Below the pieces are notes generated by a model, which saw only the letters and a list, made by a program, of their open reading frames with translations, ran no database searches and was not told where the DNA came from. Positions 22,067-29,693 of a stretch of DNA of 64,000 bases are shown here, in pieces (within the stretch, counting starts at the first letter, position 1; the number at the start of each line of letters is the position of its first letter). A program made the translations under genes and the position numbers. The stretch is taken from positions 3,906,001-3,970,000 of the forward strand of contig NZ_JARUBP010000001.1 in the NCBI RefSeq assembly GCF_029626225.1, written 5' to 3'. Origin of the DNA: Asanoa sp. WMMD1127 (GTDB lineage: Bacteria; Actinomycetota; Actinomycetes; Mycobacteriales; Micromonosporaceae).

Positions 22067-23298
22067 CCACGGGGGCGCGGGTCGCGCTGATCGGCGCCAA
22101 CGGCCACGGCCGCTGGCACCGGCGGCGGCTCGCGCCCCGGCACGAGGCGGGCGAGATCGTGTTCGCCGGCATCGCCGAGCCCAACCCGGTCGACCCGGAC
22201 GCGCCGGTGCCCGCGGACACGCCCGTCTTCGGCGATCATCGTGAGCTGCTCGCGAACGCCCGGCCCGACGTGGTGGTGATCTGCACGCCGCCGGGCAGCC
22301 ACCTGCCCATCGCGCTGGACGCCCTGGCCGCCGGGTGCGACGTGCTGCTGGAGAAGCCGCCGGTGCTGTCGCTGGCCGACCACGAGCGGCTGGCGGCGGC
22401 CCTGGCCGAGACCGGCCTGGCCTGCCAGGTGGGCTTCCAGGCGCTCGGGTCGGCCGCGTTGGACGAGCTGCGCGCGTCCGTCGCGGGGGGCGCGCTGGGC
22501 CGGCTCACCGGCGTCGCCGCGGTGGCGTCGTGGCAGCGCGACGACGCCTACTACGCCCGCTCGCCGTGGGCGGGCCGCCGGGCCGTGGACGGCGCCCTGA
22601 CCAACCCGCTCGGCCACGCCGTCATGCAGGCCCTCGCCATCGCCGATCCCTTGCTCTGCAGCCATATACGCATCACCGGTAGCGGGCCGACAGGTGATGC
22701 GTATATGGCTGCAGAGCAAGGGGCGGCGACCCTGCCGAGTCGGATCGAGGTCGAGCGGTACCGGACCCGGCCGATCGAGAGTGACGACACCGCCGTGCTG
22801 CGGCTGACCGTCCCGGGCGGGCCACCGGTCGTCGTCGCCGTCACGCTGGCCGGCGAGGAGTTCATCCCCGGTGAGGTGGTCGTCACCGGGGAGCGGGGGA
22901 GCGCCACCTTGGAATACCCGACCGACCGCCTGCGGCTGCCCGGCGAACCCGGCCTGCGCGAGGTGCCCGGCCGGGTCGACCTGCTCGACAACCTGCTCGC
23001 ACACCGGGCCGACCGGGCGGGCGTCCCGTTGCGGGCGCCACTGGCCGCCACCGTGGGCTTCACGGCGGTGGTCGACGCCCTCGGTGACGCGCCGCCGCCG
23101 GTGGCGCTCGACGCCGGTGTCGTCAGCGACATCGGCGCCGGGCCGGCCCGGATCCGCTCCATCGGCGGGATCAACGACGTGCTCCGCCGGGCCGCGAACG
23201 GGCTCGCGCTGCCGTCCGAGCTCGGCGTGCCGTGGGCCCACCCACCGCACACGGAAACGGTTCTGCAAACCACGGGGTCAACCGCCCACCTGAAATAG
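22063..23298 (+). CDS. Gfo/Idh/MocA-family oxidoreductase carrying an in-frame palindromic insert, 411 aa
   Basis: It is an NAD(P)-dependent oxidoreductase. The Rossmann start reads RVALIGANGHGRWHRRRL, the family lysine motif is LLEKPPVLSL (about 102-111), and the C-terminal domain has TNPLGHAVMQALAIAD and VERYRTRPIESDDTAVLRL. Codons 196-220 are entirely made of a 75-bp palindrome encoding PLLCSHIRIT-GSGPT-GDAYMAAEQG, in a place where a helix should run into a beta strand. The reading frame is intact before and after, but the insert could disturb folding. ATG 22063 overlaps the reductase stop. A hairpin terminator follows, so this is the last gene of the operon. Confidence 0.85.
   Translation: MTTGARVALIGANGHGRWHRRRLAPRHEAGEIVFAGIAEPNPVDPDAPVPADTPVFGDHRELLANARPDVVVICTPPGSHLPIALDALAAGCDVLLEKPPVLSLADHERLAAALAETGLACQVGFQALGSAALDELRASVAGGALGRLTGVAAVASWQRDDAYYARSPWAGRRAVDGALTNPLGHAVMQALAIADPLLCSHIRITGSGPTGDAYMAAEQGAATLPSRIEVERYRTRPIESDDTAVLRLTVPGGPPVVVAVTLAGEEFIPGEVVVTGERGSATLEYPTDRLRLPGEPGLREVPGRVDLLDNLLAHRADRAGVPLRAPLAATVGFTAVVDALGDAPPPVALDAGVVSDIGAGPARIRSIGGINDVLRRAANGLALPSELGVPWAHPPHTETVLQTTGSTAHLK
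22648..22722. repeat. perfect palindromic element inserted in frame in a coding sequence
   Basis: Two perfect 30-nt inverted arms (22648-22677 and 22693-22722) are separated by a 15-nt loop. The arms contain an A+T-richer core (CCATATACGCATCAC) unlike the surrounding gene. The element is 75 bp, a multiple of three, and begins exactly on a codon boundary, so the gene stays open. No clear target duplication is visible. It resembles in concept the in-frame palindromic elements known from Rickettsia. In RNA it would form a 30-bp hairpin. Confidence 0.85.
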
Positions 23299-23386: not shown

Positions 23387-23416
23387 TTGACACTCATAAA
23401 GACCGATACCTATGTT
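23387..23416 (+). promoter_or_regulatory. sigma70-type promoter of the pectate lyase cluster
   Basis: A perfect -35 box TTGACA (23387-23392) is followed after 18 bases by TATGTT (23411-23416). It lies about 40 bases upstream of ATG 23454, in a locally A+T-rich stretch. A start near 23423 would leave a 30-base leader with ACGGAGTG as ribosome-binding site. Confidence 0.65.
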
Positions 23417-23453
23417 TCAGAATAGGTTTCCAGGTTGCGAACGGAGTGTCTCA

Positions 23454-24764
23454 ATGCGATTTCGCAGTCTCGCCGCCAGCGTGGCCGGCGTGCTGGTCGT
23501 GGCCTTCGCGGCGCCTGCCGCAGCCGCCCCGACCTCTATGATCGACCGCTTGGCCAGGCAGATCCTGCCGGCCGGCGACGGTTGGGCGGCGGACGGGGCC
23601 GGCACGACCGGTGGCGCCGCGGCCACCCCGGAGAATGTCTTCCACGTGACCGACCGCGACGAGCTCGCGGCCGCGGTCGCCGGCCCCGATCCCGCGATCG
23701 TCGTCGTCCACGGCACCATTCTCGGCAATGCCGACCCGTCCGGAGCGCCATTGTCGTGCGCGCAGTTCGCCGATCCGGCGTACTCGTTGGACGCCTTTCT
23801 CGCCGCCTACGACCCGGCGGTGTGGGGCCGCGTCGCGCCGAGCGGACCGCTGGAGGAGGCCCGGGTGCGCTCGGCCGCCAACCAGAGCGCGCGGGTGCGG
23901 GTCAACGTCGGCTCCAACAAGACCATCATCGGTGCCGGCGCCGCCCGGCTGAACGGTGTCTTCCTGCGCCTCGACGGCAGCGCCAACGTGATCATCCGGA
24001 ACATCACCCACGAGGACACCCGCGACTGCTTCCCGGTCTGGTCGCCGACCGACGGCGAGGCCGGCAACTGGAACGCGGCGTACGACAACGTCTGGATCCG
24101 CAACTCGCAGCACGTCTGGATCGACCACAACACGTTCACCGACGCCGACAACCCCGACTCCGCCCAGCCGCTCCACTTCGGACGGCCCTACCAGGTGCAC
24201 GACGGGCAGGTCGACATCACCAACGGCAGCAACTACGTGACGGTGTCCTGGAACCGGTTCACCAACCACGACAAGACGATGCTGATCGGCTCGACCAACA
24301 CGCCCGGCGCCGACGTCGGCGCCCTCAAGGTGACCCTGCACCACAACGAGTTCGACGGCAGCGTGCAGCGCGCGCCTCGGGTCCGGTTCGGCCAGGTCGA
24401 CGTCTACAACAACCTCTACCGCGTGCCCGTCGCCGAGCCCTACGAGTACAGCTGGGGCGTCGGCGTCCAGTCGGCCATCTACGCCGAGAACAACTACGTC
24501 GCGCTCGGTGCTGGCGTCGCAACGGACGCGTTCGTCTACGACTGGGGCGGCACGGCGCTCACCGAGGTCGGCACCTGGGTCCGCTCGGGCTGGTCACTGC
24601 CGCGGCCGGCCAGCCTGCTCGCCGCCTACAACGCCACGCACGACCCCGACCTCAGCCCCGACGCCGGCTGGACGCCCAGCCTGCGCGCGGGTCCCGTCCT
24701 GCCCGCGCCGGCAGCCGCGCTCGTGGTCGAGCTGTGCGCGGGCGCCCGCCGCCTACCGACCTAG
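23454..24764 (+). CDS. secreted pectate lyase, PL1 family, 436 aa (lyase A)
   Basis: It cleaves polygalacturonate by beta-elimination outside the cell. A Sec signal peptide (MRFRSLAASVAGVLVVAFAAPAAAA) is followed directly by the PL1 beta-helix: GTTGGAAATPENVFHVTDRDELAAAV, NKTIIGAGAA, NVIIRNITHEDTRDCFPVW, HVWIDHNTFTDADN, YVTVSWNRFTNHDKTMLIG, VTLHHNEFDG and the catalytic-arginine segment QRAPRVRFGQVDVYNN. There is no carbohydrate-binding module. Of the eight lyases here it is the most divergent and closest in layout to classical plant-pathogen pectate lyases. ATG 23454 has ACGGAGTG upstream; an earlier in-frame ATG at 23412 would spoil the signal peptide. Lyase B follows after 10 bases. Confidence 0.95.
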   Translation: MRFRSLAASVAGVLVVAFAAPAAAAPTSMIDRLARQILPAGDGWAADGAGTTGGAAATPENVFHVTDRDELAAAVAGPDPAIVVVHGTILGNADPSGAPLSCAQFADPAYSLDAFLAAYDPAVWGRVAPSGPLEEARVRSAANQSARVRVNVGSNKTIIGAGAARLNGVFLRLDGSANVIIRNITHEDTRDCFPVWSPTDGEAGNWNAAYDNVWIRNSQHVWIDHNTFTDADNPDSAQPLHFGRPYQVHDGQVDITNGSNYVTVSWNRFTNHDKTMLIGSTNTPGADVGALKVTLHHNEFDGSVQRAPRVRFGQVDVYNNLYRVPVAEPYEYSWGVGVQSAIYAENNYVALGAGVATDAFVYDWGGTALTEVGTWVRSGWSLPRPASLLAAYNATHDPDLSPDAGWTPSLRAGPVLPAPAAALVVELCAGARRLPT

Positions 24765-24774
24765 GAGAGCCTCG

Positions 24775-26331
24775 ATGAGAAGACGTCTGGCCGCCGTCGC
24801 GGCGGCCGCTGCCCTCGCCCTGCCGCTGAGCGTGGTCGGGATGAACATGGCGTTCGCCGCGCCGGTGTTCGCCGACAGCTTCGACGACGGCAACGCCAAC
24901 GGCTGGTCGCGGTCGGGCGGGAGCTGGTCGGTGGTGAGCGGGGCCTTCCGGCAGTCGAGCACCGGCGCCAACGCCCGCGCCCTGGCCGGCACCACGTCGT
25001 GGACCGACTACACCGTCACCGCTCGGGTCACGCCGATCGCGTTCGGCTCCACCGCCCGCACGGTCGGGGTGGCGGCCCGGGTGCAGACGTCGAGCAACTA
25101 CTACGCCCTGGTGCTCACCGGCGGCGGATCCGTGCAGCTGCAACGGGTCTCGGGCGGCACGGCGACGGCCCTGGCCACCGGGGTCGTCGGGGTGACGCCG
25201 GGCACCGCCTACGGCCTGAGCCTGCGGGTCGCCGGCGGTCAGCTCTCCGGCGCGGTCAACGGCGTGACGCTGGTGCGGGCGACCGACAGCACCTTCGCCT
25301 CGGGGCGGATCGGCCTGGTGGCGTCCTACGCCAGCGCCGCCTTCGACGACGTGGCCGTCGAGACCGGCGCCGGGCCCGACCCGACCACGCCGCCGCCGAC
25401 CGACCCGCCGCCCACCGGCACCTGCCGGGTCAGCGGCACGCCGAGCGGCTTCGCCACCGTCGACGGCACGACCACCGGCGGCGCCGGCGGCCCGACGGTC
25501 GCCGTGGACACCGCCGCCGAGTTGCTCACCGCGATCGCCCGGACCGGCCCCGTCACGATCTGCGTGCACGGCACGATCGCCCTGCCGGCCGGGATGCACG
25601 ACGTGGCCAGCGACAAGTCCATCGTCGGCGTCGGCGGCACGGCCGGCATCACCGGCGGCGGCTTCAACATCGGCGGCCCGGTCTCCGGTGCCACCACGCC
25701 GCCGGCCGACGCCGTGCACAACGTGATCATCCAGAACCTGTCGTTCCGCAACGCCAGCGACGACTCCATCAACGTGCAGATGTTCGCCCACCACGTGTGG
25801 ATCGACCACAACGACCTGGCGCAGGGCTACGACGGTCTGATCGACATCAAGCGCGGATCGTCCTATGTGACCGTGTCGTGGAACCACACCCACCACCACA
25901 CCAAGAACATGCTGCTGGGCCACGACGACAGCAACGGCGCGCAGGACGTCGGCCGGCTCAAGGTGAGCTACCACCACAACTGGTTCGACGCGACGCCGCA
26001 GCGCAACCCACGGGTCCGGTTCGGCGAGCCGGTGCACGTCTACAACAACTACTTCTTCTACAACACCGACACCGGGGTGGCGTGCCAGGCCGACGCCGGC
26101 TGTGTGGTGGAGGGCAACTACTTCGAGAACGTCGAGGAGCCGGTGACCAACACGTACGCCGGCCCGCGTGGCCGCTGCGTCGCCCGGCTCAACGTGTTCG
26201 CCGGTGAGTCCGGCGCGCCGGAATGCTCGGGCACCGTGCAGGAGCCCAGCGCGTACTACGCGTACACCCTCGACGACGCTTCGGCGGTCAAAGCGCTCGT
26301 GACCGCCGGCGCCGGGGTCGGCAAGGTCTGA
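24775..26331 (+). CDS. secreted two-domain pectate lyase, 518 aa (lyase B)
   Basis: After the signal peptide (ending near ...VGMNMAFAA, about residue 29) comes a beta-sandwich module (about 30-200) beginning FADSFDDGNANGWSRSGGSWSVVSGAFRQSS and ending FDDVAVETG. It resembles LamG/DUF1080-like sugar-binding folds. A short Thr/Pro linker (TTPPPTDPPPTG) leads to the PL1 domain (about 220-518): GTTTGGAGGPTVAVDTAAELL, HHVWIDHNDLAQGYDGLIDIKRGSSYVTVSWNH, YHHNWFDATPQRNPRVRFGEPVHVYNN. Extra cysteines (TCRVSGT, TICVHGT, VACQADAGCVVEG) may form disulfides. SD AGGAGAG. It is co-transcribed with lyase A. Confidence 0.93.
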   Translation: MRRRLAAVAAAAALALPLSVVGMNMAFAAPVFADSFDDGNANGWSRSGGSWSVVSGAFRQSSTGANARALAGTTSWTDYTVTARVTPIAFGSTARTVGVAARVQTSSNYYALVLTGGGSVQLQRVSGGTATALATGVVGVTPGTAYGLSLRVAGGQLSGAVNGVTLVRATDSTFASGRIGLVASYASAAFDDVAVETGAGPDPTTPPPTDPPPTGTCRVSGTPSGFATVDGTTTGGAGGPTVAVDTAAELLTAIARTGPVTICVHGTIALPAGMHDVASDKSIVGVGGTAGITGGGFNIGGPVSGATTPPADAVHNVIIQNLSFRNASDDSINVQMFAHHVWIDHNDLAQGYDGLIDIKRGSSYVTVSWNHTHHHTKNMLLGHDDSNGAQDVGRLKVSYHHNWFDATPQRNPRVRFGEPVHVYNNYFFYNTDTGVACQADAGCVVEGNYFENVEEPVTNTYAGPRGRCVARLNVFAGESGAPECSGTVQEPSAYYAYTLDDASAVKALVTAGAGVGKV

Positions 26332-26341
26332 CCCCGGCGAA

Positions 26342-26474
26342 GGTGCCGGCGGGTCAGTGGCGACCGGAAGGCGTCACGAGGCGGCAGCCTCGAGACGGCT
26401 GAGGACCACCGGAGACCCGGCCCGCCGGCACCGCGCAATCAGGTACGGAAGGCGTTCTCAGCCCGGGCCTTCCG
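26342..26474 (+). promoter_or_regulatory. structured leader RNA candidate upstream of lyase C
   Basis: The gap holds a long nested structure. An outer perfect 12-bp stem (26342-26353 with 26421-26432) encloses GTGG/CCAC (26357-26360 with 26406-26409) and an inner hairpin CGAGGC-GGCA-GCCTCG (26377-26392). A second hairpin follows: CGGAAGGC (26446-26453) with GCCTTCCG (26467-26474). The same CGGAAGGCGT occurs inside the first structure at 26365-26374, so GCCTTCCG could pair with either copy. Such exclusive pairing is what attenuators and riboswitches use. A strong AAGGAGG and GTG start follow. I could not match it to a known riboswitch class; plain terminator use is the alternative. Confidence 0.45.
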
Positions 26475-26514
26475 CACCCTCAGAGATCGACAACTATCGA
26501 TCAAGGAGGAATCC

Positions 26515-28131
26515 GTGTCACCCACGTCAAGACGCCGCGGTTTGCTGGCGGCTCTCGGGGCCGGAGTCGCCGCCGCGGCGCTGGTCCTCGGCATGACCAC
26601 CGGCGCCAGCGCCGCCACCCTGCTCTCCGACGACTTCGAGGACGGCAACTCGGCCGGGTGGACCACCAACGGGGGCAGCTGGTCGGTGGCCACCGACGGC
26701 TCCCGCGTGCTCCGCCAGAGCAGCACCAGCAGCGACGCCCGCGCCATCGCGGGCACCGCGAGCTGGACAGACTATTCCGTGCAGGCGCGGGTGAAGCCCA
26801 TCGCCTTCAACGGCAGCAACCGGTTCGTCGCGGTGCTGGCCCGGGTGCAGAGCAGCACGAGCTACTACTACCTGGCCCTGCGCTCCAACAACACCGTCGA
26901 GCTCAAGCGGCTGGTCGGCGGCTCGTCGACCACACTGGACACCGCCTCCGTCGGCGTGAGCGCGGGCACCTTCCACACGCTGCGGCTCGAGGTGGCGGGG
27001 TCGCGGCTGCGCGGCTACGTCAACGGCACGCTGCTCACCGAGGCCACCGACACGCGGTGGGCCAGCGGGCGGGTCGGCGTGGCCACCTTCTACACCACGG
27101 CCAGCTTCGACGACGTGCTCGTGTCGACCGTCGGCAGCGGCGAACCAACGGGAGAGCCGACCGGCGAGCCCACGGGTGAGCCCACCGGTGAGCCGACGAC
27201 CGGGCCCACCAACCCGCCGCAGCCGAACGTGGCCGACGGCTGGGCCTCGGTGAACGCCTGGGGCCAGAACGGCACCAGCGGCGGCGCCGGCGGTCCCACC
27301 GTGACGGTGACCACCGCCTCCGCCTTCCTGTCGGCGATCGCGCAGGCCGGCCCGCGCGTCATCCAGGTGCAGGGCATGCTCACGCTGCCCGGGCCCATGC
27401 ACGACGTCACCTCCGACAAGACGATCGTCGGGCTCGGCTCGGGCTCCGGCCTGACCGGCGGCGGGCTCAACATCGGCCTGCCGATCGACGACGACGTCAC
27501 CGCGCCGCCGGCCAACGCCGTGCACAACGTCATCGTCCGCAACCTGAACTTCCGCGGCTGGCCGGACGACGCCATCAACGTGCAGATGTTCAGCCACCAC
27601 GTCTGGATCGACCACAACACGTGGACGACCGGGTCCGACGGCGGCGTCGACGTCAAGCGGGGCTCGTCGTACGTGACGATCTCCTACAACCACGCCGACG
27701 GCACTGACAAGAACATGCTGCTCGGCCACGACGACGAGAACGCCGCCCAGGACACCGGCCGGTTGAAGGTCTCCTACCACCACAACTGGTTCGACGCGAC
27801 CAACCAGCGCAACCCGCGCGTCCGGTTCGGCGACCAGGTGCACGTCTACAACAACCACTACAACGACACGGGCAACTACGGCGTCGCGTCGACCGAGAAC
27901 GCCGGCGTCATCGTCGAGGGCAACTCCTTCGTCAACGTCGACGACCCGTTCCACCTCGGTGAGGCGTCGTCGGGACCGGGCCGGATCGTGGCCCGCGCCA
28001 ACTGCTTCACCAACTCCGGCACCGGCGAGGCGGGCGGCAGTGTCTCGGCGGTCCCGTACGCGTACACCCTGCTGCCCTGTGCCCAGGTGCAGTCCACCGT
28101 GACCGCGCAGGCCGGCGCGGGTCGGATCTGA
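26515..28131 (+). CDS. secreted two-domain pectate lyase, 538 aa (lyase C)
   Basis: GTG 26515 follows a near-perfect AAGGAGG site. A signal peptide (RRRGLLAALGAGVAAAALVLGMTTGASAA) precedes the N-terminal beta-sandwich module (LLSDDFEDGNSAGWTTNGGSWSV to SFDDVLVSTVG, about 35-205). The linker has five exact GEPT repeats. The PL1 domain (about 240-538) shows TSGGAGGPTVTVTTASAFLSAI, VHNVIVRNLNFRGWPDDAINVQMFSHHVWIDHNTW, DKNMLLGHDDENAAQD, and the catalytic QRNPRVRFGDQVHVYNN. It and lyase D form a pair (11 bases apart). The leader upstream suggests its own regulation. Confidence 0.93.
   Translation: MSPTSRRRGLLAALGAGVAAAALVLGMTTGASAATLLSDDFEDGNSAGWTTNGGSWSVATDGSRVLRQSSTSSDARAIAGTASWTDYSVQARVKPIAFNGSNRFVAVLARVQSSTSYYYLALRSNNTVELKRLVGGSSTTLDTASVGVSAGTFHTLRLEVAGSRLRGYVNGTLLTEATDTRWASGRVGVATFYTTASFDDVLVSTVGSGEPTGEPTGEPTGEPTGEPTTGPTNPPQPNVADGWASVNAWGQNGTSGGAGGPTVTVTTASAFLSAIAQAGPRVIQVQGMLTLPGPMHDVTSDKTIVGLGSGSGLTGGGLNIGLPIDDDVTAPPANAVHNVIVRNLNFRGWPDDAINVQMFSHHVWIDHNTWTTGSDGGVDVKRGSSYVTISYNHADGTDKNMLLGHDDENAAQDTGRLKVSYHHNWFDATNQRNPRVRFGDQVHVYNNHYNDTGNYGVASTENAGVIVEGNSFVNVDDPFHLGEASSGPGRIVARANCFTNSGTGEAGGSVSAVPYAYTLLPCAQVQSTVTAQAGAGRI
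27139..27198 (+). repeat. five GEPT repeats in the linker of lyase C
   Basis: Five consecutive 12-bp units encode GEPT between the sandwich module and the catalytic domain. The codons for the same residues vary between units, so the repeat is selected at protein level or is not very recent. It acts as a flexible extracellular linker. Confidence 0.85.
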
Positions 28132-28142
28132 GGAGACAGCTG

Positions 28143-29693
28143 ATGACGAGAACGGCACGCCGCGGGCTGCTCGCGGTGACAGCGGCGGCCCTGGCCGCCA
28201 TCGTGGTCGCGTTCGGCCTGGGCGGCGTGGCCCAGGCGGCGACCCTCTTCTCCGACGACTTCAACGACGGCAACGCCAGCGGCTGGTCGAAGTCCGGCGG
28301 CGACTGGTCGGTGGTCAGTGACGGCACACCGGCGTTCACGCAGTCCAAGACGGACAGCGAGCTCGCCCGCGAGTTCGCCGGGCAGACGAGCTGGACCGCC
28401 TACTCGGTGCAGGCCCGGGTCAAGCCGTTGGCCTTCAACGGCAGCAACCGGCTCGTCGCGCTGGCGGCCCGGTCGTCGTCCGCCACGAAGATGTACCGGC
28501 TGGCGCTCACCAACGCCAACCGGGCCGAGCTGCAGGCGGTCGACGGCTCCGCGGTCACCGTGATCGGCTCGGCGGCGCTGACGGTGTCGACCGGCACCTG
28601 GTACACGCTGCGGATCGACGCCAACGGCAGCACGATCTCGGGCTTCGTCAACGGCAACCGGATCGCGTCGGGTAGCAACAGCGCGCACAGCGCCGGCCGC
28701 ATCGGCCTGGTGACCGTGTTCGCCTCGGCCCGGTTCGACGACGTGGTGGTCAGCTCCGAAGGCTCGACCAACCCGACCGACCCGCCGACCGGCAACCCGA
28801 CCACGCCGCCACCGACCGGTGGCCCCACCACGCCGCCGCAGACCGGCCTGGTCGGCTGGGCGACGCAGAACGGCGGCACCACCGGCGGCGGCAGCGCTTC
28901 GGCCACCACGGTCACCAGCGCGGCGGCCCTGACCAGCGCGGTCGGGGCGAGCGGGGCCGCGGTGATCCGGGTCAGCGGCACGATCTCGTGCTCCGGCATG
29001 ATCCGGGTGCGGTCCAACAAGACCATCCTCGGCAACTCCGGCGCGACGATCTCCGGCTGCGGCTTCACCGTCAACGGCGACCGCAACGTCATCATCCGCA
29101 ACCTGTCGTTCCGCGGCTGGGCCGACGACGCGATCAACGTGGAGCAGTCGGCGACCAACATCTGGGTCGACCACAACAGCTTCACCGACGGGTACGACGG
29201 CGCGGTCGACATCAAGCGCGGCTCCGACTTCGTCACCGTCTCGTGGAACCGCGTCTTCGGCCACGACAAGTCGATGCTGCTCGGCCACTCCGACGACAAC
29301 GCGTCGCAGGACGTCGGGCACCTGCGGGTGACCTATCACCACAACTGGTTCGACGGCTCGGGCACGCGCCACCCGCGCGTGCGCTTCGGCAACCCGGTGC
29401 ACGTCTACAACAACTACTACTACAACAACGAGTACGGCGTCGCGTCCACGATGGACGCCGGCGTGCTGGTCGAGGGCAACTACTTCGAGGGCGTCGACGA
29501 GCCGACCCTGGTCGGTTACGCGGACTCCGACCCCGGCGACCTCGTGCAGCGCAACAACGTCTTCGTCGGCTCCGGCGCACCGCAGAGCGCGGGCAGCACG
29601 GGCGGCATCCCGTACTCGTACCAGCTCGACAACCCCAACAACGTCAAGTCCATCGTCACGAGCGGGGCCGGCGCGGGCCGGATCAACCCCTGA
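28143..29693 (+). CDS. secreted two-domain pectate lyase, 516 aa (lyase D)
   Basis: ATG 28143 has AGGAGACAG upstream, 11 bases after lyase C. It has a signal peptide (GLLAVTAAALAAIVVAFGLGGVAQAA), the beta-sandwich module (LFSDDFNDGNASGWSKSGGDWSV to FDDVVVSSEG), and a Thr/Pro linker (NPTDPPTGNPTTPPPTGGPTTPP). The PL1 domain has CSGMIRVRSNKTILGNSGATISGCGF, IWVDHNSFTDGYDGAVDIKRGSDFVTVSWNRVFGHDKSMLLGHSDD and GTRHPRVRFGNPVHVYNN. Its catalytic domain is strikingly close to that of lyase H at 52 kb, while their binding modules are unrelated. A strong hairpin terminator follows. Confidence 0.94.
   Translation: MTRTARRGLLAVTAAALAAIVVAFGLGGVAQAATLFSDDFNDGNASGWSKSGGDWSVVSDGTPAFTQSKTDSELAREFAGQTSWTAYSVQARVKPLAFNGSNRLVALAARSSSATKMYRLALTNANRAELQAVDGSAVTVIGSAALTVSTGTWYTLRIDANGSTISGFVNGNRIASGSNSAHSAGRIGLVTVFASARFDDVVVSSEGSTNPTDPPTGNPTTPPPTGGPTTPPQTGLVGWATQNGGTTGGGSASATTVTSAAALTSAVGASGAAVIRVSGTISCSGMIRVRSNKTILGNSGATISGCGFTVNGDRNVIIRNLSFRGWADDAINVEQSATNIWVDHNSFTDGYDGAVDIKRGSDFVTVSWNRVFGHDKSMLLGHSDDNASQDVGHLRVTYHHNWFDGSGTRHPRVRFGNPVHVYNNYYYNNEYGVASTMDAGVLVEGNYFEGVDEPTLVGYADSDPGDLVQRNNVFVGSGAPQSAGSTGGIPYSYQLDNPNNVKSIVTSGAGAGRINP

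Follow-up and report, generated by a model that had tools for sequence, protein, structure and literature searches.

What keeps short palindromic repeats in bacterial genomes and lets them spread is an open question, and it has been studied largely through REPINs and their RAYT transposase. According to the available text of the sources, REPINs are doublets of REP sequences that form hairpins and their RAYT partner is a Y1 tyrosine transposase (PMC3116915), REPs with GTAG and CGTC tags constitute two superfamilies (PMC3733652), and the palindromic elements of Rickettsia are about 105-150 bp long, with a large share of them located in genes (PMC2229807, PMC10969869).

The palindrome family of Micromonosporaceae described here resembles REPIN-RAYT systems, as far as the available parts of PMC3116915 describe them, in its inverted conserved ends, variable spacer, hairpin, compensatory stem changes and intergenic bias, in having a partner gene that is mostly present once per genome and has a neighbouring element, and in the clustering of elements. 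It departs from that system by its TTGCTCTGC ends, by copies that number in the tens, and by a partner that is an XRE helix-turn-helix protein, its C-terminal half unnamed, instead of a Y1 transposase. A search for RAYT (PF01797) gave no match in G000, the genome of the window and one of the six Asanoa species compared (G000-G005), and matches in three of the ten genomes examined, one of them among the six Asanoa; a RAYT-driven REPIN was therefore rejected for G000. Like the GTAG- and CGTC-tagged REPs in the available description (PMC3733652), the elements lie mostly between unidirectional or convergent genes and some lie in genes, but their end motifs are different, with neither tag in the copies inspected, which read TTGCTCTGC...GCAGAGCAA, and G000 has no Y1 transposase domain.

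The preliminary description of the palindrome had likened it to the elements of Rickettsia. The likeness holds in that both occur between genes and in frame within genes, where they add a recurrent peptide (PMC2229807, PMC10969869, as far as their available text goes), but size differs: the Asanoa elements are mostly 64-69 nt, only a minority are genic, they belong to other bacteria and they have a linked gene, the comparison being one of organization and not of sequence. They also resemble the bacterial MITEs NEMIS, ERIC and RUP, which in the available text of PMC2229807 are small, have inverted ends, and are mostly intergenic and sometimes form in-frame fusions; unlike in MITEs, no target duplication was seen, and no cognate insertion sequence is known from a search that covered PF01797.

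The window palindrome and its host gene

The window, the 64-kb stretch C1:3906001-3970000 of G000, contains at 22648-22722 an inverted repeat of two perfect 30-nt arms and a 15-nt loop, which together make 75 nt, or 25 codons, open throughout (Table 1). Recomputation confirmed the arms, the loop, the length divisible by three and the left edge on codon 196, whose first base, 22648, lies 585 nt into the host gene. The expression "perfect 75-bp palindrome", used at first, is strictly speaking wrong for this structure, an inverted repeat whose arms are separated by a loop, and a second inverted-repeat computation on this copy gave 33-nt arms with 97% complementarity. Judged from the other copies, the conserved element is bounded by TTGC...GCAA and the outer CCC/GGG is a property of the window locus.

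Table 1. Positions of the features discussed; plain numbers refer to the window and L numbers to fetched loci.
Feature	Position	Strand	Remarks
Left arm	22648..22677	+	30 nt; outer CCC locus-specific
Loop	22678..22692	+	15 nt, GGTAGCGGGCCGACA; same loop class at the site in G004, enlarged in G003
Right arm	22693..22722	+	30 nt; reverse complement of left arm, no mismatch
Palindromic element proper, 69-nt variant, TTGCTCTGC...GCAGAGCAA	22651..22719		bounds from comparison with other copies
Host gene, Gfo/Idh/MocA-type oxidoreductase, 411 aa	22063..23298	+	element forms 25 extra residues, codons 196-220; Pfam PF01408, E 1e-18
CACTGATGC...GCATCAGTG palindromes, G509	L507:7530-7710, L512:4325		upstream of gene; dispersed copy
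CACTGATGC...GCATCAGTG palindromes, G371	L527:9785-9865, L546:7308		upstream of gene; dispersed copy

The palindrome is far beyond chance: 100 shuffled versions of the window yielded no match to a 27-nt arm pattern, and the z of the RNA fold is -15.6 for 22640-22730. As had been claimed, the arms are richer in A+T than the gene (G+C 0.57 against 0.75), and the minus strand reads, in the same register and inside a minus-strand open reading frame, a nearly identical peptide, PLLCSHIRITCRPATGDAYMAAEQG. When up to 3 mismatches to the arm pattern were allowed, the 64-kb window showed no second element. A plasmid or phage origin was rejected, as a 91-nt query had no match in either a plasmid or a phage collection. 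No known RNA family was recognized in Rfam, whose 8 matches, mostly to microRNA-precursor models, were all under the gathering scores. Downstream of the dehydrogenase gene, at 23412-29693, several adjacent secreted-looking genes were observed, which we take to resemble pectate lyases.

In the orthologous gene an element is present in five of the six Asanoa species (G000, G002, G003, G004 and G005), where it is of different kinds, and absent from G001. The 69-nt loop is common to G000, G004 and, enlarged, G003, whereas a different class of loop, 64-nt, occurs in G002 and, in the reverse orientation, in G005, and the arms differ from species to species; along its whole length, the G005 copy matches five further G005 copies at 95-97% identity. 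Two landmark motifs of the protein are separated by a linker of 14 aa in G001 and, in other genera, of 18-60 aa across 17 homologues (L215-L219 and L221-L232, with four further loci, L220, L233, L235 and L236, left out of this reading), and a palindrome-type peptide is absent from the linker in all 17. The alignment with homologues that had been proposed as a check thus found the 25 residues missing from the G001 orthologue and from the 17 readable homologues; no homologue had the residues without DNA palindromy, and the element proved to have other copies. The insertion site is therefore a linker whose length varies. The distribution at the window site suggests a single old insertion, which would have been rewritten in place later and lost in G001; the alternative would be separate insertions at the same site in different species.

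Copies, placement and changes between species

The window palindrome is one of about two dozen copies of the family in its own genome. Allowing up to 3 mismatches, the arm had 42 matches in G000, 21 per strand, against none for the reversed control, and the palindrome pattern had 23 and 25 matches, one figure per strand. A TTGCTCTG-ended pattern was present in 57 of 200 genomes and 13 of 44 genera of Micromonosporaceae, which are soil bacteria; its reversed control had one or two matches in 14 of the 200 genomes, so genomes with a single match may be due to chance. In a phylum-wide sample 2 of 346 genomes matched, both of them Micromonosporaceae and the sole two of that family listed in the sample. 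Named records with the pattern, among the matches listed, belong to Micromonospora, Asanoa, Catellatospora, Catelliglobosispora and Rhizocola. The idea of a repeat family was therefore borne out, with many copies in the genome itself and in related Micromonosporaceae, both within and between genes, and searches of open-licence papers with a few sets of terms turned up no description of the family.

From the fetched loci 134 elements were collected, 128 of them from Asanoa (26 in G000, 10 in G001, 13 in G002, 47 in G003, 22 in G004 and 10 in G005) and 6 from G026. A strict pattern gave 15, 14, 45, 22 and 13 copies for G001 to G005, and since the counts for G001, G002 and G005 exceed the collected sets, the collection is incomplete for at least these three. 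Nested doubles were observed at L100, L117 (Catellatospora), L148, L168 and L171, where a 19-nt piece of an outer arm is found on one or both sides and it looks as if one palindrome sat within another. The deltaproteobacterial metagenome genome Ga0077539 has several 79-80-nt elements that share the TTGCTCTGCA...TGCAGAGCAA ends and differ in their interiors (L070, L080, L082, L115 and L130, with which L142 and L145 were also grouped).

The usual copy is 64 nt long with a loop of about 10 nt; 64, 65 and 69 nt are the commonest lengths, and the window copy is the 69-nt variant. The ends, TTGCTCTGC...GCAGAGCAA, are constant across the copies inspected, and the rest of the arm varies with pairing kept. 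In 126 distinct elements at least two types of Watson-Crick pair occur at 11 of 22 stem positions and double-change cells number 209 of 2,772, stem positions 2-8 being fixed by the search pattern and thus uninformative on covariation. The two arms of an element match each other better than arms dealt randomly within the genome in G000, G002, G003 and G004, and in G001 and G005 their pairing was not significantly above the genome motif. Read by eye, the inspected flanks showed no T run after the stem and no target duplication, and they usually shared only GCT/AGC, which is a short extension of the palindrome.

By the calls of our own codon-statistics gene caller, 117 of the 128 Asanoa elements are intergenic and 11 lie in genes (12 counting L322, read by hand). 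The earlier view of an element "adapted to live inside proteins" is not supported by these numbers, by the confinement of in-gene copies to few genes, or by the 69-nt variant, which is found between genes too (L354, L370, L371 and the six G026 copies examined); the 69-nt length as a coding adaptation was dropped for the latter reason. Of the intergenic elements, 59 lie in tandem, 43 in convergent and 15 in divergent gaps, against 7, 1 and 7 among the 15 window gaps of at least 90 nt and 80, 10 and 65 among element-free gaps in the fetched loci. Convergent gaps are therefore in excess among the elements, relative to a first background that is small and a second that is biased by the choice of loci. 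Median distances are 90 nt to a gene 3' end and 116 nt to a gene start.

The 11 called in-gene cases comprise the window gene in five species, a second gene twice, a further gene twice and two cases at gene ends. An in-frame 69-nt palindrome was observed in the second gene, which we take to be that of a predicted methyltransferase, at L242:2990-3058 (G000), L372:2089-2157 (G004) and L322:2025-2093 (G003), the last being a third case that the caller overlooked; its peptide resembles that of the window (LLCSHGRITGSDPTGDAPMAAEQ in G000), and in L322 an in-frame GAEQGAPPA-like repeat run follows the end of the right arm. The frame ending GCA GAG CAA is used by 10 of the 11 called copies, and one of the other frames is interrupted by stops in the 69-nt loop. 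The proposal of one special reading frame was judged weak, given the differing L365, the few independent cases and these stops.

To recognize related loci, a match of 250 nt or more in a single flank was accepted, a permissive criterion by which some links may be paralogous. A partner in another species was found for 18 of 26 elements in G000, 8 of 10 in G001, 11 of 13 in G002, 23 of 47 in G003, 13 of 22 in G004, 7 of 10 in G005 and none of 6 in G026. Under a strict orthologue rule, with both flanks and 600 nt, 90 pairs were obtained, whose mean identity over arm positions 10-22 was 0.723. In 10 of 15 species pairs the identity of orthologous arms was within 0.04 of that of all between-species pairs (0.618 against 0.613 for G000-G003). 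It was above the between-species value in four (G001-G002, with one pair; G001-G004, with 0.962 against 0.866 in 5 pairs; G001-G005; and G003-G005) and below it in one, G002-G005. Those four species pairs keep a memory of orthology in their arms, which counts against the explanation that we favor below.

Arms are alike within genomes: their mean identity is 0.825-0.927 in all but G003, where several arm types occur and it is 0.663; the pooled within-genome mean, 0.743, contrasts little with the orthologous 0.723 because the mixed-arm G003 supplies most of the within-genome pairs. In G001-G005, 32 within-genome pairs reach 95-100% identity including the loop, in both orientations, and 31 of them are without flank similarity; no pair within G000 reaches 95%. 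Counted over the 90 strict pairs, loop orientation gave 7 flips, 25 same and 58 undecided. L244, which had been parsed as a double, enters into three of the flips, and these hold when its inner copy is read; those of G005 against G002 at the window site and of L348 against L377 hold as well, although L377 contains another copy that is not inverted, and two more are weak; loop inversion between species holds at three loci. Tandem copies with different arms occur in G003. From these comparisons copies seem rewritten to match each other within each species. Such homogenization of arms per genome and the linked gene described below are larger features, beyond the view of the preliminary description.

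A linked helix-turn-helix gene

Asanoa and Micromonospora have in common a locus in which a gene that we take, from its sequence, to be hemB is combined with a palindrome and with a gene encoding an XRE helix-turn-helix protein of some 160 residues. With presence defined as E 1e-35 or better, a threshold chosen post hoc (the next best genome has 3.5e-24), this partner gene is found in 52 of 200 genomes, G002 having two strong copies. Gene and palindromes are associated: both are present in 43 genomes, palindromes only in 14, the gene only in 9 and neither in 134, with a Fisher p of 1e-22 that ignores shared descent. For the 37 genomes in the genus of G008 the corresponding counts are 26, 7, 1 and 3 (p 0.052), and the mean copy number is 6.0 with the gene against 1.6 without it (p 7e-4). 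G055 (18 copies), G046 (12) and G114 (11) are among the 14 palindrome-bearing genomes without a strong match to the gene.

Inspection of 50 of the 52 gene-bearing genomes (G212 and G218 were left out, and variant ends were counted in L424, L470 and L471) placed a palindrome upstream of the gene in 44 loci, including 7 of the 9 gene-only genomes, with its start 130 to 670 nt before the gene. None was recognized at L413, L414, L433, L459 (contig edge), L466 and L469; a separate scan shows one at L413, which raises the count to 45. Another scan, which covered 72 loci including those 50 and required 13 or more of 22 positions to pair, gave a palindrome in 62 and overlooked some known ones. The upstream copy resembles the arm type of the rest of the genome in G003, G054 and G113, and that of G000 has ATCCATAGACG arms, unlike most G000 copies. 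A shorter, terminator-like and G+C-rich hairpin of GACGGCCCGCC...GGCGGGCCGTC type was observed downstream of the gene in many loci (e.g. L410, L413 and L416).

The C-terminal half of the partner protein is highly conserved (RRxPxHLD...DPxxGEWWxDxYGLxRPPETxYRxR...RSQWEVRV). Searches of Pfam, NCBIfam and PDB sequences gave matches to helix-turn-helix families only, and the defence-system profiles matched by the protein were mostly generic helix-turn-helix or regulator models. In the AlphaFold model the helix-turn-helix part is confident and the C-terminal half has low confidence. Sliding-window partial correlation placed the strongest coevolution with arm type at residues 119-134 and 17-28, not at the recognition helix. 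A protein-DNA specificity code, suggested by a by-eye correlation of helix and arm, was rejected as unsupported, since neither mutual information nor partial correlation favors the recognition helix. Helix divergence in matched pairs with different against same arm types was mixed over four bins (0.26/0.15, 0.41/0.45, 0.58/0.51 and 0.62/0.48).

A profile search of 396 actinobacterial genomes gave matches in 55, mostly to the helix-turn-helix part only, and outside Micromonosporaceae only G509 and G371, of two other families, matched most of the model. In both a palindrome of different sequence, CACTGATGC/GCATCAGTG, lies directly upstream of the homologue, and a 400-kb sample per genome gave one further dispersed palindrome each (Table 1). 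The CACTGATGC motif had 8 matches in G509, where L507:902 is a lone half, and 4 in G371, against 1 and 0 for the reversed control. A second palindrome family with a homologous gene is thus a lead, found post hoc in two genomes.

Explanations for the palindromes

We lean, with some reserve, towards a REPIN-like family of palindromes that is copied and overwritten in trans with a helix-turn-helix partner, and of which the window copy is an old and rewritten member. In its favor are the constant ends and covarying arms, the many copies per genome, arms that agree within a genome and differ between species at related sites, near-identical whole elements at unrelated loci, and the strong association with a gene that has a palindrome before it. 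Against it stand, besides the memory of orthology, the partner's matches to helix-turn-helix families only and the low-confidence model of its C-terminal half, which show no catalytic activity, the coevolution result, the 14 palindrome-bearing genomes without a strong match to the gene, the p of 0.052 within the genus of G008, the lack of target duplication in the inspected flanks, the small pooled contrast, the pairing in G001 and G005, and, in G000, the unlike arms upstream of the gene and the lack of pairs at 95% identity. The copying mechanism is one that we infer: whole elements would be copied in trans, into new places and over old copies, probably via folded single strands or template switching at the constant ends. 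Copying or upkeep would need the helix-turn-helix protein, which would recognize the arms or the ends and could either act via its C-terminal half or bring in a host process, for instance template switching at hairpins. The insertion in the window would predate most splits between Asanoa species and its sequence would since have been rewritten per species with the frame kept; it may have been tolerated because it stands in frame within a linker of variable length. A bolder proposal, which we hold only tentatively and think rather unlikely, is that the partner processes hairpins or copies them as a factor of a novel type, and forms with the palindromes a transposase-free, vertically inherited, self-overwriting system of Actinobacteria.

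The main rival to copying in trans is a regulatory or architectural role, in which the palindromes would be immobile binding sites of the helix-turn-helix protein, serving as operators, in chromosome architecture or, close to the ends of genes, as road-blocks to transcription, and the arms would track its changing specificity by selection. The palindrome upstream of most partner genes fits this role, as do the many sites common to several species and the share of convergent and divergent gaps (43 and 15 of 117, against 1 and 7 of 15 in the window). However, selection on a motif leaves the near-identical loops at unrelated loci, in both orientations, unexplained, in-frame copies would be poor operators, the best correlation with arm type is not with the recognition helix, and the distance from palindrome to gene is very variable, so that we regard fixed binding sites as possible but doubtful. 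The excess of convergent gaps would also suit palindromes that act as RNA, either as two-way transcription terminators or as mRNA-stabilizing hairpins at gene 3' ends, and the very stable fold of the window copy and the shorter median distance to gene 3' ends than to gene starts point the same way. Such a function is nevertheless improbable, considering the lack of a T run after the stem in the inspected flanks, the retention of copies in reading frames of several species and the uniform arms of each genome, which it would leave unexplained.

A shade less probable again are classical MITEs, miniature remnants of an insertion sequence whose transposase would recognize the TTGCTCTGC ends. Terminal inverted repeats, many copies and a mostly intergenic location are in line with them, but no target duplication was seen, PF01797, a profile that covers Y1 transposases only, is absent from five of the six Asanoa genomes including G000, and no gene was called between the two palindromes of L339, the sole pair spaced by ~1 kb. 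A chance palindrome or an assembly artefact is refuted by the many related copies and by the presence of an element in the window gene of five species at one and the same position, and we give it practically no credence.

In antibiotic-producing actinomycetes, these palindromes behave much like REPINs but are linked to another gene; they show signs of concerted evolution at loci that can be traced across species, and they extend in-frame palindromes beyond Rickettsia and Wolbachia. With one gene and tens of sites, the system is compact enough for mobility, homogenization and host function to be directly testable. The copies and the linked gene may together represent a novel system of copying within a genome, and on the bolder proposal above each species would rewrite its whole set of palindromes, even those inside protein genes.
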